Origin: Bacteroidota bacterium
GTDB lineage: Bacteria > Bacteroidota > Bacteroidia > Palsa-948
Assembly: GCA_016213405.1 (NCBI GenBank)
Contig: JACRAM010000066.1
Location: forward strand, 1-56,182
Length of the DNA: 56,182 bases
Reading direction: 5' to 3'
Below the pieces are notes generated by a model that did no database searches, was not told the DNA's origin, and saw only the letters and a program-made list of their open reading frames with translations. Positions 6,762-55,968 of this stretch are shown here, one piece after another. The position numbers and the translations under genes are program-made. How positions within the stretch are numbered: position 1 is the first letter of the stretch; each line of letters starts with the position of its first letter.

Positions 6762-6938
6762 AATCGTTTAACCTCTTAACCTAATCCATTAACTCGCCAA
6801 TCCAATCGTTTAATCTCTTAATCTAATCCATTAGCTCACCAATCCAATCGTTTAACCTCTTAACCTAATCCATTAACTCGCCAATCCAATCGTTTAACAT
6901 CTTAACCTAATCCATTAGCTCACCAACCTAATCGTTTA
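6762..6938. repeat. 42-bp tandem repeat, about 4.2 copies
   Basis: Four units of exactly 42 bases begin at 6762, 6804, 6846 and 6888 with a nine-base remnant at 6930. Each runs AATCGTTTAACCTCTTAACC and continues with TAATCCATTAACTCGCCAATCC. Units 1 and 3 are the same, while units 2 and 4 share the TTAGCTCACC variant, so an 84-bp doublet was probably duplicated. It fills the gap between the ferredoxin and NrfD-like genes. Confidence 0.9.
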
Positions 6939-11419: not shown

Positions 11420-12376
11420 TTATTTTTTCAGCAAAGTAAATGTCCTCGAAATATTAAAGCCGAATTTATAGCCACCTTTGTTCCACGAATCCGGAGAATT
11501 TGGAATCATATAATTTTCTGTGATGCCGGCAGCGTTGGTGTAATTGATATGAAATACATGTCCACCTGTTTCGATTTCAATTCCTACTGCAAGTGGATTG
11601 TAATAAGGGTTAACCGTATTTTTCTTTCTGTAATCCGACTTCACATAAAAATAATCCGCGAGAACGGAAACACTTCGGCTCACTTTCAAACGTATTCCTG
11701 CTCCAACGGCAAATAAATCATTCTCATCTATAGCTCCATTAAATGGATTTTCGCTGGCAAGAACATAATTACGATGCGTATAAGAAGGAGTAATTGCTAC
11801 GGAAAGCCATGAGGCAAACTTGCGCGCAAAAATTAACTGGGTGGTATAAACCATTTTGTGCGCGAATTTTTTATTGTCTTCACTCCATGCAGAATCTGCT
11901 CCTGAATACAATTGGCTTGTAGACATAGGTGTAAGTGATGCAATGGTGTAAGCACAAATAGTAAGAGGAATTTTATTATCAATCGACTGCTCAAGAAATC
12001 TCCATTTCAGAGAGCCATCGAGGTTTTCATTTTTTTTGTTTCTCGCAACTCCTGCCTGAACGTTTTTTGTGATACCATAGTCAAAAGAAAACCGCACATC
12101 TGAAATAGCATCCCATCCGTAAAACGTGTGAACTCCTCCGTTGCTGGCACTACCCATATTTCCAAAGCGGTGCGTGATGCGAAAGTCGAGCGCTCCCTTA
12201 CCGACAGTTTGCGGAGTCTGCATACTGATTACCTTGGTGGTTTTAAATGTGGCAGTAACCTTATAGACATCTTTGTCTTTTACACCCAGTGTATCGAGCA
12301 TTTTCAATAAATCATCCTGTGCCTTCAAAACAGTAAACAGTAAACAGTAAACAGTAAACAGTAAAATTCTTTTCAT
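11420..12376 (-). CDS. DUF5777-family outer-membrane beta-barrel (copy 2)
   Basis: 318 residues. The signal peptide (LLFTVYCLLFTVLKAQ) is made largely of heptanucleotide repeats. The barrel shows the same blocks as copy 1: GALDFRITHRFGNMG, DVRFSFDYGITKNVQAG, LAVGIEIETGGHVFHINYTN and a terminal F-G-F-N-I-S-R-T-F strand. It follows the YceI-like gene by 7 bases, so the two are cotranscribed and probably act together in the envelope. Substrate unknown. Confidence 0.87.
   Translation of the reverse strand: MKRILLFTVYCLLFTVLKAQDDLLKMLDTLGVKDKDVYKVTATFKTTKVISMQTPQTVGKGALDFRITHRFGNMGSASNGGVHTFYGWDAISDVRFSFDYGITKNVQAGVARNKKNENLDGSLKWRFLEQSIDNKIPLTICAYTIASLTPMSTSQLYSGADSAWSEDNKKFAHKMVYTTQLIFARKFASWLSVAITPSYTHRNYVLASENPFNGAIDENDLFAVGAGIRLKVSRSVSVLADYFYVKSDYRKKNTVNPYYNPLAVGIEIETGGHVFHINYTNAAGITENYMIPNSPDSWNKGGYKFGFNISRTFTLLKK
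12330..12365. repeat. Heptanucleotide repeat in signal-peptide codons
   Basis: About five copies of ACAGTAA at the start of the DUF5777 copy 2 gene. Three copies make 21 bases, so the protein shows the seven-residue repeat FTVYCLL. The same repeat occurs at 53311-53345. A gain or loss of one copy shifts the reading frame. Confidence 0.85.
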
Positions 12377-17553: not shown

Positions 17554-18192
17554 TTACTTACAATTCTTTTTGATGGTATCATAAATTTTAAAATAGCCCA
17601 GCTCACCCGCTTTACTCCAGTCAGAACAAGCTCCTTTTTTATCTCCTGCCTGAAGTTTTGCAGACCCTCTCTGTGCATATGCCTGATAATCTTTGGGATT
17701 GATTTTTATCACTTCCGAAAAATCAACTGCAGCTGATTTATAATCTTTCAGGTTCAGGTAGGACAGCCCCCGGTTAAAGTATGCGTCAGCATAATTCTTA
17801 TCCAACTCTATCGCTTTCGAAAAATCTTCTATTGAACCAAGAAAGTCTTCAAACTTCGCCTTGAGTTTACCCCTTCCTTTATATGCCTTTGGGTTTTTCG
17901 GATTCAGCTCTATCGACTTATTGTAATTCTCCATCGCTTTCTTGTTTTCATTCTGGAGAGCAGAAACTTCCGCTAAATAAAAAAACGCTTCTGGATTTTT
18001 CGGATTGAGTTCAACTGCTTTATTCAATTCAACTTCCGCGCCTTCAAAATTGCCTTCGTTAAATTGTGTTATGCCGCTTTTCAGAGAGCCGGCTGAATCA
18101 AGTATCTGAGAAATGACGAATGATGAATTACAAATGAAGAATAATGCAGCGAGAATAAATTTGCCTTTTGTATTGAACTCGTACTTCGTCAT
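17554..18192 (-). CDS. Secreted TPR protein
   Basis: 212 residues. Signal peptide of about 29 residues (ending VISQ) and four to five TPR units, each with NPKNPEAFFYLAE-type A helices (about 37-190). The last part, KKGACSDWSKAGELGYF, is common at the end of short Bacteroidota TPR proteins. No enzymatic motif; TPRs bind peptides or partner proteins. It is followed 12 bases later by the SiaC-like gene, so they share a transcript and perhaps a pathway. Confidence 0.85.
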   Translation of the reverse strand: MTKYEFNTKGKFILAALFFICNSSFVISQILDSAGSLKSGITQFNEGNFEGAEVELNKAVELNPKNPEAFFYLAEVSALQNENKKAMENYNKSIELNPKNPKAYKGRGKLKAKFEDFLGSIEDFSKAIELDKNYADAYFNRGLSYLNLKDYKSAAVDFSEVIKINPKDYQAYAQRGSAKLQAGDKKGACSDWSKAGELGYFKIYDTIKKNCK

Positions 18193-18213
18193 TCGTAATT
18201 CGTAATTCGTAAT
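18191..18213. repeat. ATTCGTA heptanucleotide repeat
   Basis: Three copies of ATTCGTA fill the gap between the DUF3127 gene stop and the TPR gene start. The same word, in both orientations, forms the hairpin at 52412-52483. Confidence 0.8.
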
Positions 18214-18579
18214 TTAAAACGGCAGATCATCATCAGGAGTTGGCACCAGTGTTTCATTATTGAAACTTGGCTCTGAAACATTTTCTGCTGAAGAATTATT
18301 TTTTGATTTTTCAATCTTGAAAACATCCAGCGAGTTGAAAAATTTAGTTTCTCCCTGCGGGTTTTTCCATTCTCTTCCTTTCAATCCAAAGTGAACGGTG
18401 ATTTCGTCTCCCACATTTGCATTTTCAATGAGCGAGCATCTGTCCTGTGTAAGCTGAAATAAAATAGTTTGCGGGTAGCTTGCAGCATTATCCGTGAGAA
18501 CAAATTCTCTTTTTCTGAACCGGTCGGAAACTTTTTGTTCGTTTCCTTTTACTTTGATGGTGCCTGTGTAGGTAAGCAT
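18214..18579 (-). CDS. DUF3127 protein with an SSB-like acidic C-terminal tip
   Basis: 121 residues. A small beta-barrel-like domain (1-92: LTYTGTIKVKGNEQKVS, REFVLTDNAASYPQTILFQLTQDRC, VGDEITVHFGLKGREW) followed by a flexible tail ending PTPDDDLPF. DUF3127 is a short family found mainly in Bacteroidota and phages. Its strand order and the acidic tip match single-stranded DNA-binding proteins, whose last residues (DDDIPF in E. coli) recruit repair enzymes. So an SSB-like or OB-fold DNA-binding role is a reasonable inference. A TATTGAG repeat lies upstream of the start. Confidence 0.82.
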   Translation of the reverse strand: MLTYTGTIKVKGNEQKVSDRFRKREFVLTDNAASYPQTILFQLTQDRCSLIENANVGDEITVHFGLKGREWKNPQGETKFFNSLDVFKIEKSKNNSSAENVSEPSFNNETLVPTPDDDLPF

Positions 18580-26983: not shown

Positions 26984-27493
26984 ATGTACGGAAACATTAC
27001 GGCTACGCTGTCAGCAGCTGACAAAGCGGCCATCAAGCAAAAAGTGCAGGACATTCTTGTCCTTCTTCAGGCAAGCGGCACCACCCTTATCAACCTCACG
27101 CAGGACGAGCGCAAATCGCTTCCTAAAATGGGAAACAAGCGCTACGCCTTTGTGAAGCGTTTGATTCAGGCGGTGAAAGAAAATCCAGCTGAACTTCCTT
27201 CTTCTTACAATGTGGCGGCAATGGAACAGGATTTCACCGGGTTTGACGACCTGAATGAAATCCGTATCCCCATCATGCAGTTGATGGAAAAAATTTCAGA
27301 CACGCAATTGGGCGCGGGCGTTGAAGCGCACAAAGCGGCATTGAAAGGAAAAGAACTTTTAGAAGCCGCCAACCGCGATAATCCCGGGCTGGATGACGTG
27401 GTGAGTGAACTTCAGGAGTTTTTTGACCGGGCAGAACAAGACACTGTTGAAGAACTGCCTCCGCCTCCTCCACCGGTTAAACCCGCTTCGTAA
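26984..27493 (+). CDS. Conserved hypothetical protein, helical, proline-rich tail
   Basis: 169 residues, no signal peptide or membrane segment. Largely helical: a first part with SAADKAAIKQKVQDILVLL, a middle block INLTQDERKSLPKMGNKRYAFV (only part quoted) and GFDDLNEIRIPIMQLMEKISDTQ, and a tail ending EELPPPPPPVKPAS. I have the impression of a family of similar 160-180 residue proteins in Bacteroidota with the LT-x-EER-x-SLPKMG block, function unknown. Cytoplasmic. It has its own terminator and is followed by the 21-bp operator-like array and the HTH gene. G+C is higher than in most neighbours. Confidence 0.8.
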   Translation: MYGNITATLSAADKAAIKQKVQDILVLLQASGTTLINLTQDERKSLPKMGNKRYAFVKRLIQAVKENPAELPSSYNVAAMEQDFTGFDDLNEIRIPIMQLMEKISDTQLGAGVEAHKAALKGKELLEAANRDNPGLDDVVSELQEFFDRAEQDTVEELPPPPPPVKPAS

Positions 27494-27514
27494 TTGAAGC
27501 GAAAACAAAGAAAG

Positions 27515-27537
27515 TCCCGATAGATCGGGATTTTTTT
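27515..27537 (+). terminator. Terminator of the 26984-27493 gene
   Basis: TCCCGAT-AG-ATCGGGA stem followed by seven T, 22 bases after the stop codon. It separates this gene from the repeat array and the HTH gene. Confidence 0.85.
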
Positions 27538-27552
27538 GTTGCTCAAAACATA

Positions 27553-27720
27553 AAATTTCCAGATAAAATCTGGAAAGTTCAAGATAAAAGCTGGAAAACT
27601 CCAGATAGCATCTGGAAAATTCAAGAAACAATCAGGAAAGTTTCAGATAAAATCAGGAAGATTCAAAATAATATCAGGAAATCTCAAGAGTAAATCAGAA
27701 AATTTCCAGATAATATCAGC
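27553..27720 (+). promoter_or_regulatory. Eight exact-length 21-bp repeats with palindromic cores
   Basis: Eight consecutive units of exactly 21 bases start at 27553, 27574, 27595, 27616, 27637, 27658, 27679 and 27700. Each follows the pattern AAAnTTCnAGATnnnATCnGG. Units 1 and 3 contain the perfect palindrome CCAGAT-N3-ATCTGG (27559-27573 and 27601-27615); the others are degenerate. The array ends four bases before the start codon of a helix-turn-helix gene, and 21 bases is two DNA turns, so all sites face the same side. Cooperative binding by the adjacent protein is the natural guess. Confidence 0.7.
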
Positions 27721-27724
27721 AGCC

Positions 27725-28039
27725 ATGAAGCACATAGGAAAAACACTCAGGCAAATTTTACGGCAGAAAAACCTTTCGGCAGAATCCTTCGCGCAACTCA
27801 TCGGCAGAAGCAACCAAACCGTGTACGATATGTTCCGAAGAGAACACATTCACCCGAAACTGCTGGAGAAAATTTCTGCCGCGCTGGAGCACGATATGTT
27901 TCAATACCTGCGCGAAAACGGAGATTCTCCCGCTGAAAAAAAACTCATGGAAAAAATTTCTCGGTTGGAAAAAGAAAACGAACAACTGAAAAATGAAAAT
28001 GCTTATCTGAAGGAAATTGTGCGGCTGAAAGGAAAATAA
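27725..28039 (+). CDS. Small XRE-type HTH protein with leucine-zipper tail
   Basis: 104 residues. The first 60 form an XRE/Cro-like helix-turn-helix (TLRQILRQKNLSAESFAQLI ... SNQTVYDMFRREHIHPKLLEKIS), followed by about 35 residues of heptad-patterned coiled coil (KKLMEKISRLEKENEQLKNE ...), which should make a dimer. A short body plus zipper is unusual for XRE proteins, which often have a sensor domain. The eight 21-bp repeats end four bases before the ATG, so the transcript leader would be inside or just before the array. Autoregulation is inferred. It ends 11 bases from the convergent permease gene. Confidence 0.85.
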   Translation: MKHIGKTLRQILRQKNLSAESFAQLIGRSNQTVYDMFRREHIHPKLLEKISAALEHDMFQYLRENGDSPAEKKLMEKISRLEKENEQLKNENAYLKEIVRLKGK

Positions 28040-29313: not shown

Positions 29314-30489
<1,176 letters not shown>

Positions 30490-52495: not shown

Positions 52496-53362
52496 TTAAT
52501 GCGCGATTATTTTCGCTCTTACTTCCCCGACTTTTTGCGCCAGAGATGCAACTTCTGTTTCGTTGATGTCGGACTTTACAGAAAGCCCGTCATAAATGGA
52601 TTTTATTCCATTGAGGTCAGTAACCAGAGAAACATAATTCACATCCTCATTGAACTGCGAAAGAAGTTCAATAATCATGTTGAGATGATTTTTCTGCTCC
52701 CATATTTTTTTGTAAAGCACCTGGGATTTTTCGGTGCGCGGAATGGTGCCGAGCGAAGTAAGCGTGGCGTATATTCCTTCCAGCCATCCGCCCGTGACCA
52801 CCAATGAAGCAAGTCCTATGCGCTCGTTTGATTTCAATGTATTATCCACTTCGCTGTAAGAAGCAAACACAATTTTTTCAAGACTGTCTTTATTCGTTCC
52901 GTATTTTTTGTACGTGCCAAGCGCCTGCTGGTCAAACGCAAGCGGAATTCCTAAATCATCTGCCAGTTTTTTCGCGCACTTCAGGTATTTCCCCATGTCT
53001 TCAAATTTTTCATACGTGATGCTGTACGCTAAATCTCCACCGTAAATTCCGAGATTCAGCGCTTTGGAAATACTGGACGAATAATAAGGAAGATTGGAAG
53101 TTGGATTTACTGCACCAGCATTATATATCAAGGGCACTTCAGCATGAACACGCAAAATATCAAACGGGATTGGAATGTTGCTGATGAGTTTGTCATATTT
53201 GAACTGAGTGAGATCATCCACTTTTCCTGTATCATTGGCAGAGGAAGCAGTGGCGGTATCTGTAGAAGAAGTTTGCTGATCGTTATTTCCGTTTCCGCAG
53301 GAAGAAAGAAAAACAGTAAACAGCAAACAGTAAACAGTAAACAAAAATATTTTTTTCAGCAT
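52496..53362 (-). CDS. Helical lipoprotein of unknown function
   Basis: 288 residues. Signal peptide LFTVYCLLFTVFLSSC with Cys 22, encoded partly by the 7-bp repeat. A Ser/Thr/Asp-rich linker (25-50) is followed by a helical body (about 55-288) with YNAGAVNPTSNLPYYSSSIS, LGIYGGDLAYSITYEKFEDM, and VVTGGWLEGIYATLTS. Looks like a family of Bacteroidota lipoproteins with no known role. Own promoter just upstream. The repeat in the signal codons could switch it off by frameshift. Confidence 0.8.
   Translation of the reverse strand: MLKKIFLFTVYCLLFTVFLSSCGNGNNDQQTSSTDTATASSANDTGKVDDLTQFKYDKLISNIPIPFDILRVHAEVPLIYNAGAVNPTSNLPYYSSSISKALNLGIYGGDLAYSITYEKFEDMGKYLKCAKKLADDLGIPLAFDQQALGTYKKYGTNKDSLEKIVFASYSEVDNTLKSNERIGLASLVVTGGWLEGIYATLTSLGTIPRTEKSQVLYKKIWEQKNHLNMIIELLSQFNEDVNYVSLVTDLNGIKSIYDGLSVKSDINETEVASLAQKVGEVRAKIIAH
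53311..53345. repeat. ACAGTAA heptamer repeat in lipoprotein signal codons
   Basis: About four to five copies, one with a point change (CAGCAAA). Same seven-base word and same encoded FTVYCLL as at 12330-12365, 41 kb away. Confidence 0.85.
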
Positions 53363-54646: not shown

Positions 54647-54689
54647 AAGAAATTATAGAAGTTCAAAGATATGAGTATTTGGGAACTAC

Positions 54690-54962
54690 GAATTGGGTGG
54701 GAGGGCATAGGAATCGGGAGGGAGTGTGTAGGAATCGGGAGGGAGTGTGTAGGAATCGGGAGGGAGTGTGTAGGAATCGGGAGGGAGTGTGTAGGAATCG
54801 GGAGGGAGTGTGTAGGAATCGGGAGGGAGTGTGTAGGAATCGAATGGAAGTGTATAGGAATCGAACGGAGGGGTGTAGGAATCGGGCGGAGGGGTATCGG
54901 AATCGAATGGAAGGGTGTAGGAATCGAGCGGAGTGGAATAGGAATTGAGCGGGAAGTCAGAG
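54690..54962. repeat. 21-bp GA-rich tandem array, about 12 to 13 copies
   Basis: Units of exactly 21 bases begin at 54690 and every 21 bases to 54942. The core is GAATCGGGAGGGAGTGTGTAG; the first six complete copies from 54711 are identical, and the later ones diverge (GAATCGAATGGAAG ...). It occupies the shared upstream region of the M42 peptidase and the 55033 gene. The plus strand has repeated GGGAGGG runs that could form G-quadruplexes. The gap 54647-55032 contains no gene: several frames through it stay open only because 21 is a multiple of three. Confidence 0.92.
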
Positions 54963-55032
54963 GGATTGGGTTTTGTGGCATGATGTTTGGATGTGAGCTA
55001 TTAAACAATCAAAAGAATTAACAATTAAAAAG

Positions 55033-55968
55033 ATGAAAGACGAACAAGAAGATAAGCTGAGCATGGCGCTTGCCACGCAGAAGGTGATGAATGACAACAG
55101 CGGTTTGTGGAGCGGGATACCCGCCATGGTTACTGTTGTGAGCGGATTTGGAAACAACATTGCAGCGATACAGAGTGTGCGTGGGATACAGGAACAGGAT
55201 CGGAGGGGGATACCGATTGACAAGGGAGACAAAAAACAGGATGCGATTAAGAAGGCGCTGCCTGTGATAGGCGGGATGAAGGCGTTTGCAAGGGCGAACA
55301 AGAACAACGAGCTTCTGAAAAAAATTGATTACAGCCGTACGGAATTAGACAAAGTGAGGGATACGGTTACTCTTGACCGATTGAAAATTGTGAGGGATGA
55401 GGTTCTCTTGATTATTGGTTTGCTGGGACCTTATAATATAACAGTTACTGAAGTGAACGCGCTGAACGGAGCGATTGCCGCCTACGAGGTGATGATACCG
55501 AAGCCGAGGGTGGCTCTGAATATCAGCAAGAGCGCTACGGAGGCGCTGAAGAGATTGCTGAAGGAAATGGATGAGCCGCTTAAGATTATGGATGGGCTGA
55601 TGGACACGTTGAAAACGAGCCAGGAGACTTTTTGGAAAATCTATAAGAATGCGCGGATTATAGTGGACAGCGGCAGAGGCGGAAGCGGTGTGAAGGGGAC
55701 TATAAAGGATAAACTTACGGGCGCAGGGCTTGAGGGGGCGCTGGTAAGCGTTAATGCTCCTTTGCACAGAACCAGAACGAATGCGCGAGGCGCAACGCGA
55801 ACGATGACTACTAGGACCAATACGGAGGGGAATTATGAGATAAGGAAGTTACGCGAAGGGAAGTATGTGGTTACGATACAGATGGCGGGTTACAAGGATT
55901 TGCAGATTGCTGTAACGATTGAGAAAGGGAAGATTACGGACGCGGACGGGGAGATGGAGAGGGTATAG
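55033..55968 (+). CDS. Hypothetical protein with a carboxypeptidase-regulatory-like end
   Basis: 311 residues, no signal peptide. Residues 1-210 are helical and start with LSMALATQKVMNDNSGLWSG and ALPVIGGMKAFARANKNN, unrecognised. Residues about 222-311 look like a carboxypeptidase-regulatory-like Ig fold: GVKGTIKDKLTGAGLEGALV, NTEGNYEIRKLREGKYVVTI and MAGYKDLQIAVTIEKG. The codons are clearly richer in G and C than in most genes here. It is followed by a palindrome and stands downstream of the GA-rich 21-bp array. Confidence 0.82.
   Translation: MKDEQEDKLSMALATQKVMNDNSGLWSGIPAMVTVVSGFGNNIAAIQSVRGIQEQDRRGIPIDKGDKKQDAIKKALPVIGGMKAFARANKNNELLKKIDYSRTELDKVRDTVTLDRLKIVRDEVLLIIGLLGPYNITVTEVNALNGAIAAYEVMIPKPRVALNISKSATEALKRLLKEMDEPLKIMDGLMDTLKTSQETFWKIYKNARIIVDSGRGGSGVKGTIKDKLTGAGLEGALVSVNAPLHRTRTNARGATRTMTTRTNTEGNYEIRKLREGKYVVTIQMAGYKDLQIAVTIEKGKITDADGEMERV

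Follow-up and report, generated by a model that had tools for sequence, protein, structure and literature searches.

The gene of a 104-residue helix-turn-helix (HTH) protein is directly preceded by eight tandem 21-bp units with palindromic cores, and this layout recurs at paralogues in the same genome and at relatives across the class. From the sequence comparisons set out below, we lean towards the reading that the protein binds its array as phased dimers, cooperatively, and covers its own promoter, so that it would autoregulate. The array lies in a 56,182-nucleotide stretch of DNA (the window), which corresponds to contig C66 of a draft genome of 3.65 Mb, judged to be Bacteroidota from the proteins that it encodes. 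As the first-pass annotation had described, positions 27553–27720 hold eight 21-nt units in exact register with a constant spacing of 21, ending four bases (27721–27724) before the ATG at 27725. The lag-21 match score of the array is 68, while shuffled sequences reach a maximum of 12–15. The palindrome CCAGAT-N3-ATCTGG noted there is indeed intact in unit 1 (27559–27573) and unit 3 (27601–27615) and degraded in the other units, and the dyad symmetry of the unit consensus exceeds that of column-permuted controls (p = 0.002–0.003). The array is flanked by the start codon of the HTH gene on its 3′ side and by a hairpin on its 5′ side, which folds as a 13-pair stem (stem 27515–27530, listed on the minus strand) and whose T run ends 11 bp before the array. 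The features of the locus are collected in Table 1.

Table 1. Features of the array locus, in positions of the window
Feature	Position	Strand	Basis or remark
HBP, gene of a 169-aa predicted all-helical protein, function unknown	26984..27493	+	ORF; conserved 5′ neighbour of the array
Hairpin then T run, terminator-like	27513..27541	+	Between HBP and array; AAGTCCCGATAGATCGGGATTTTTTTG
Tandem array	27553..27720	.	8 x 21 bp; consensus approximately TTCmAGATAAAATCwGGAA plus 2-bp joint
Unit 1	27557..27575	.	Perfect palindrome TTCCAGAT-AAA-ATCTGGAA; putative dimer site
Unit 3	27599..27617	.	Near-perfect palindrome cTCCAGAT-AGC-ATCTGGAA; putative dimer site
104-aa Cro/CI (XRE)-type HTH and coiled-coil protein, putative array binder	27725..28039	+	HTH_3 match
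HTH domain, residues 8–54	27746..27886	+	Pfam HTH_3 match
C-terminal helix / leucine zipper, residues 69–102	27929..28030	+	AlphaFold model; weak coiled-coil profile matches

The 104-residue product had been proposed to be an XRE protein with a dimerising zipper, and this assignment is in line with our predictions. The protein scores 25.3 bits against Pfam HTH_3 (curated cut-off 23), and a single-sequence AlphaFold model predicts a helix at residues 69–102 with block means of 62–94, within a model of low overall confidence. Its matches are XRE regulators, its family profile shows weak similarity to SinR and the 434 repressor, and a search of named genomes gave matches confined to the zipper part. 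Since neither the viral contigs nor the plasmid collection that we queried contained relatives of the HTH protein or of HBP, a phage or plasmid origin was rejected.

The operator sequence is close to unique to this locus. Genome-wide, all sites with at most one mismatch lie in the array except two, and with up to two mismatches we counted three sites outside the array against 2.2 expected, i.e. no enrichment, in an 843-kb sample of the genome (G000: L052–L091 and L112–L131). An apparent excess of the operator elsewhere, suggested by a reversed-pattern control, vanished with permuted-arm controls. The lack of enrichment speaks against a regulon of this operator elsewhere in the sampled DNA, and it leaves the earlier suggestion of a titrating sink over a wider regulon unsupported.

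The pairing of array and HTH gene recurs well beyond this locus. Six paralogues of the 104-residue protein are encoded in the same genome, each with its own array just 5′ of the start codon and with a different unit sequence at each. We searched the family in 30 relatives and then in 295 genomes of the class, 94 of which contain it, and scored an array when a period of 21, 42, 22 or 44 was detected within 450 bp 5′ of the gene. Upstream DNA could be read for 109 members, and 33 of these passed this score. The earlier proposal turned on whether orthologous HTH genes in other genomes are also preceded by an array; this is so for 7/7 members in this genome and for 26/102 (about a quarter) elsewhere, compared with 4.4% and 2.2%, respectively, of the other genes in the same DNA, and the proposal was not refuted. 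The array-less members are numerous and belong to separate sequence groups, e.g. with the recognition regions SKQNVYGIFKR.SIDT or HPGSISRIFNY, so that only part of the family shows the pairing. A separate period scan of the 33 array-positive members gave a best period of 21 in 30 and of 22 in two cases, while the remaining one (L044, best period 15) was judged spurious; the same scan recovered two weaker period-21 arrays (L046 and G212:C65), which brings the total to about 34. The 22-bp period is found only in one HTH subclade that spans two families (G270:C97, G068:C61 and G091:C2, the array of the last being degenerate).

The units of these arrays are frequently symmetric, and their sequence varies with that of the protein. 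Significant dyad symmetry (p < 0.05) is present in 18 of 35 HTH arrays, where about two would be expected, and is missing in about half of them. In orthologues from three species (G015, G157 and G059) the core CTATG-N7-CATAG is kept in 9–11 units each, while the non-core positions drift and the 21-bp spacing stays constant. Across the family, unit similarity grows with HTH identity (Mantel r = 0.55, p = 0.0005), a correlation that is partly due to shared ancestry of whole loci; the mean z of unit similarity is 5.3 at more than 60% HTH identity and near zero below 30%. Discordant close pairs also occur, namely L001/L002 (58% HTH identity, z = 0.7) and L025/G091:C1 (63%, z = −0.6). The order HBP, hairpin with T run, palindromic array and HTH gene is common to L001, L002 and G087, and the cores at these three loci all differ (TTCmAGAT..ATCwGGAA, TTCTA..TAGAA and GTG..CAC). 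Column-wise constraint within the arrays did not set those at HTH genes apart from the rest and was dropped as a mark of binding.

In our reading, the arrays may fall into two types according to their distance from the gene. Palindromic arrays, including the one described here, mostly end 0–25 bp before the start codon, whereas arrays set back by about 45–150 bp are mostly non-palindromic. The promoter motif TAnnTTTG is matched between array and gene at six arrays, with 0.7 expected by shuffling; within or beside the array at 27553–27720 we found no such match, nor did we find a sigma-70-like site. The start-proximal palindromic type suggests promoter overlap and repression, and the set-back type could act in upstream activation.

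We propose the following mechanism for the locus. A dimer of the HTH-zipper protein would occupy the palindromic core of each 21-bp unit, and up to eight dimers, aligned along one face of the DNA, would bind cooperatively. With a hairpin ahead of the array and a start codon 4 bp behind it, the promoter of the HTH gene probably lies within the array or at its edge, and occupancy of the array would then repress the gene, resulting in autoregulation with a steep threshold. The array would act as a cluster of operators private to its own protein and evolving together with it, and other family members would do likewise with other site sequences. Cooperative autorepression on one DNA face had already been suggested in the first-pass annotation: the phasing part is strengthened by the exact 21-bp pitch and by the 22-bp subclade, and the autoregulatory part is our best inference.

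The array might, however, belong primarily to the gene upstream of it. The gene at 26984 had been suspected to be part of the same unit, and its linkage argues for this: HBP homologues lie 5′ of 9 of the 34 array-bearing HTH genes as opposed to 2 of 75 array-less ones, and a 21-, 22- or 44-bp array directly follows the HBP homologue in 17 of 30 loci (L209–L238, across the class) while preceding it in only two. In this genome, four of five HBP genes have such a 3′ array, two of them at sites that lack an HTH-zipper gene. As arrays of the HBP family often lie 3′ of the gene and at loci devoid of an HTH gene, HBP and array form a recurrent unit as well, and the array may have a role for HBP that is not limited to the HTH gene. 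A stronger version takes HBP and its 3′ array as the conserved element, for instance a nucleoprotein site or one that marks the locus, which the HTH gene joined later as a dispensable partner or regulator; it accommodates the HBP loci that have no HTH gene behind the array. We regard it as unlikely, although it is the most serious alternative. Against it, an HBP homologue is missing upstream of about 25 of the 34 array-bearing HTH genes, so that HTH gene and array also exist alone, and a terminator-like hairpin parts HBP from the array in the three loci inspected (L001, L002 and G087). HBP itself matches no Pfam family and has no PADLOC match, and its single-sequence structure model (pLDDT 43.6) was too poor for a structure search. 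Behind the HBP gene of two loci (L201, 974–1222; L233, 1031–1240) we observed a second small protein family with no Pfam match, characterized by the motifs GEGLLISREEW and GEGIVILFTDW; in L201 an array lies between HBP and this gene.

Arrays of this period are abundant in the genome. In the 843-kb sample, 27 of 42 arrays with at least three copies have a period of 21 or 42, one of which (in L122) looks coding. Extrapolation gives about 115–120 21-bp arrays per genome, mostly with unrelated units and away from HTH genes, in mixed positions: some are intergenic, some within operons, and others 5′ or 3′ of a gene. One motif shared by all of them was not found (630 pairs, mean z 0.07, with a few pairs related). 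These numbers, and the arrays within operons or 3′ of genes, would suit an origin of the array as one of many 21-bp minisatellites that arise by mutation and duplication, with the adjacency to the HTH gene incidental or co-opted later. We give this account somewhat less credence than an array owned by HBP. Genomes with few 21-bp arrays still carry them at HTH genes, cores are conserved across species while the rest of the unit drifts, one HTH subclade has units of 22 bp, and mutation alone would not lead one to expect dyads that differ from protein to protein.

The window itself contains two further arrays of 21/42-bp period that the first-pass annotation had missed. The one at 54687–54968 has a 21-bp unit (GAATCGGGAGGGAGTGTGTAG) in about 13 copies, of which six are identical, and lies 64 bp 5′ of the gene of a 311-aa protein (55033–55968) with a C-terminal CarboxypepD_reg domain; there is no HTH-zipper gene at the site. 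The other, at 6762–6938, has a 42-bp period made of two 21-bp halves and is located between two minus-strand genes, whose products look from their sequences like an iron-sulphur protein and an NrfD-like one; the unit of this array resembles that of the HTH array L003 (z = 4.5 among the 630 pairs). Short arrays of 7-bp units, a third of 21 bp, are found at 12328–12365, 18179–18214, 29974–30003, 30362–30393 and 53311–53343, with units AAACAGT, TCGTAAT, CTCCTGA and GTTTCAG. Elsewhere in the genome, 21-bp arrays often stand beside genes of helical proteins, some with beta-sandwich tails. A palindromic 21-bp array in L117 (5495–5670; TTTGGTGG..CCACCAA; dyad p = 0.002) lies 242 bp 5′ of a small HTH gene that appears by eye LuxR/GerE-like, i.e. 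of a different DNA-binding family.

We also considered whether the palindromes work at the RNA level, as hairpins in the 5′ leader of the HTH transcript, instead of as DNA sites. The region does fold better than shuffled sequences (z = −6.66), but most of this stability is contributed by the palindromes themselves and by the terminator-like hairpin. Arrays without palindromes share the period, the fixed pitch of 21 or 22 bp would stay unexplained, and no Rfam match was obtained in the window, which makes this explanation improbable. That the units encode seven-codon repeats of a translated peptide has next to no likelihood and is refuted as a general account: 21 is divisible by three and an open frame runs through 17 of 35 HTH arrays, but the other 18 are closed in all six frames and one subclade repeats at 22 bp.

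The preferred reading, a private operator cluster bound by the adjacent protein, has counterparts among autoregulatory repressors of the Cro/CI type with operator clusters, such as phage lambda and 434 CI and SinR. These share with the locus an HTH_3-class domain, palindromic sites beside the repressor's own gene and, as predicted here, a dimerising C-terminal part. They differ in that they use two or three operators, whereas 8–13 sites are arranged head to tail at 21 or 22 bp here, in that a short coiled coil follows the HTH domain here, and in that the site sequence here differs in nearly every paralogue. Plasmid iterons and the initiators that bind them, such as RepE of the F plasmid, likewise combine tandem repeats of about two helical turns with an autoregulated DNA-binding protein (cf. 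PMC13028717). The present array is, in contrast, located on a chromosomal contig, where no Rep-type protein or origin features were seen; no replication initiator is apparent beside the array in the ORF list of the window, and neither of the two proteins queried has a relative in the plasmid collection. An iteron-like, origin-adjacent array, as had been put forward earlier, hence finds no support.

Within the Bacteroidota, the closest precedent is BrickBuilt of Porphyromonas gingivalis, a minisatellite/MITE with a 23-nt unit that forms an intergenic tandem array with promoter activity, is repeated as one unit at 19 loci and has leader and tail subunits with inverted-repeat ends (PMC4596501). 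Both are intergenic arrays of units of about two turns; here, however, every array is built from a unit of its own and is linked to an HTH gene, whereas the abstract on BrickBuilt gives no matched HTH gene (PMC4596501). One unit at many loci is not what we find, the operator being nearly confined to its array. In the PubMed Central full text that we searched, BrickBuilt was the nearest case to turn up, and arrays like the present ones were not described. As regards a type II toxin–antitoxin operon, HBP has no Pfam or PADLOC match, often occurs in places that lack the HTH gene, and is separated from it here by a terminator-like hairpin. For a parC/tubC-like partition system, no cytomotive NTPase is apparent among the neighbours in the ORF list.

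A wider interpretation, which we hold to be doubtful yet worth stating, is that HBP, phased array and HTH-zipper gene together form an undescribed modular nucleoprotein element distributed across the class. The arrays would then be private addresses with co-diverging matching readers and would serve further functions besides local autoregulation, for example silencing, bridging or the marking of loci, and the 21-bp pitch would have spread to more than 100 loci in this genome.

If the adjacent protein reads the array, the family would amount to a naturally occurring set of matched HTH/operator pairs, with over 30 found here, and such pairs would be useful for studying Cro/CI specificity and for orthogonal repressors. 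The fixed pitch of 21 bp, and of 22 bp in one subclade, makes it possible to test directly whether operator spacing is set by the geometry of assembly. The finding would, if true, also provide an entry point to a widespread family of helical proteins, HBP, and to the numerous 21-bp arrays that such genomes contain.
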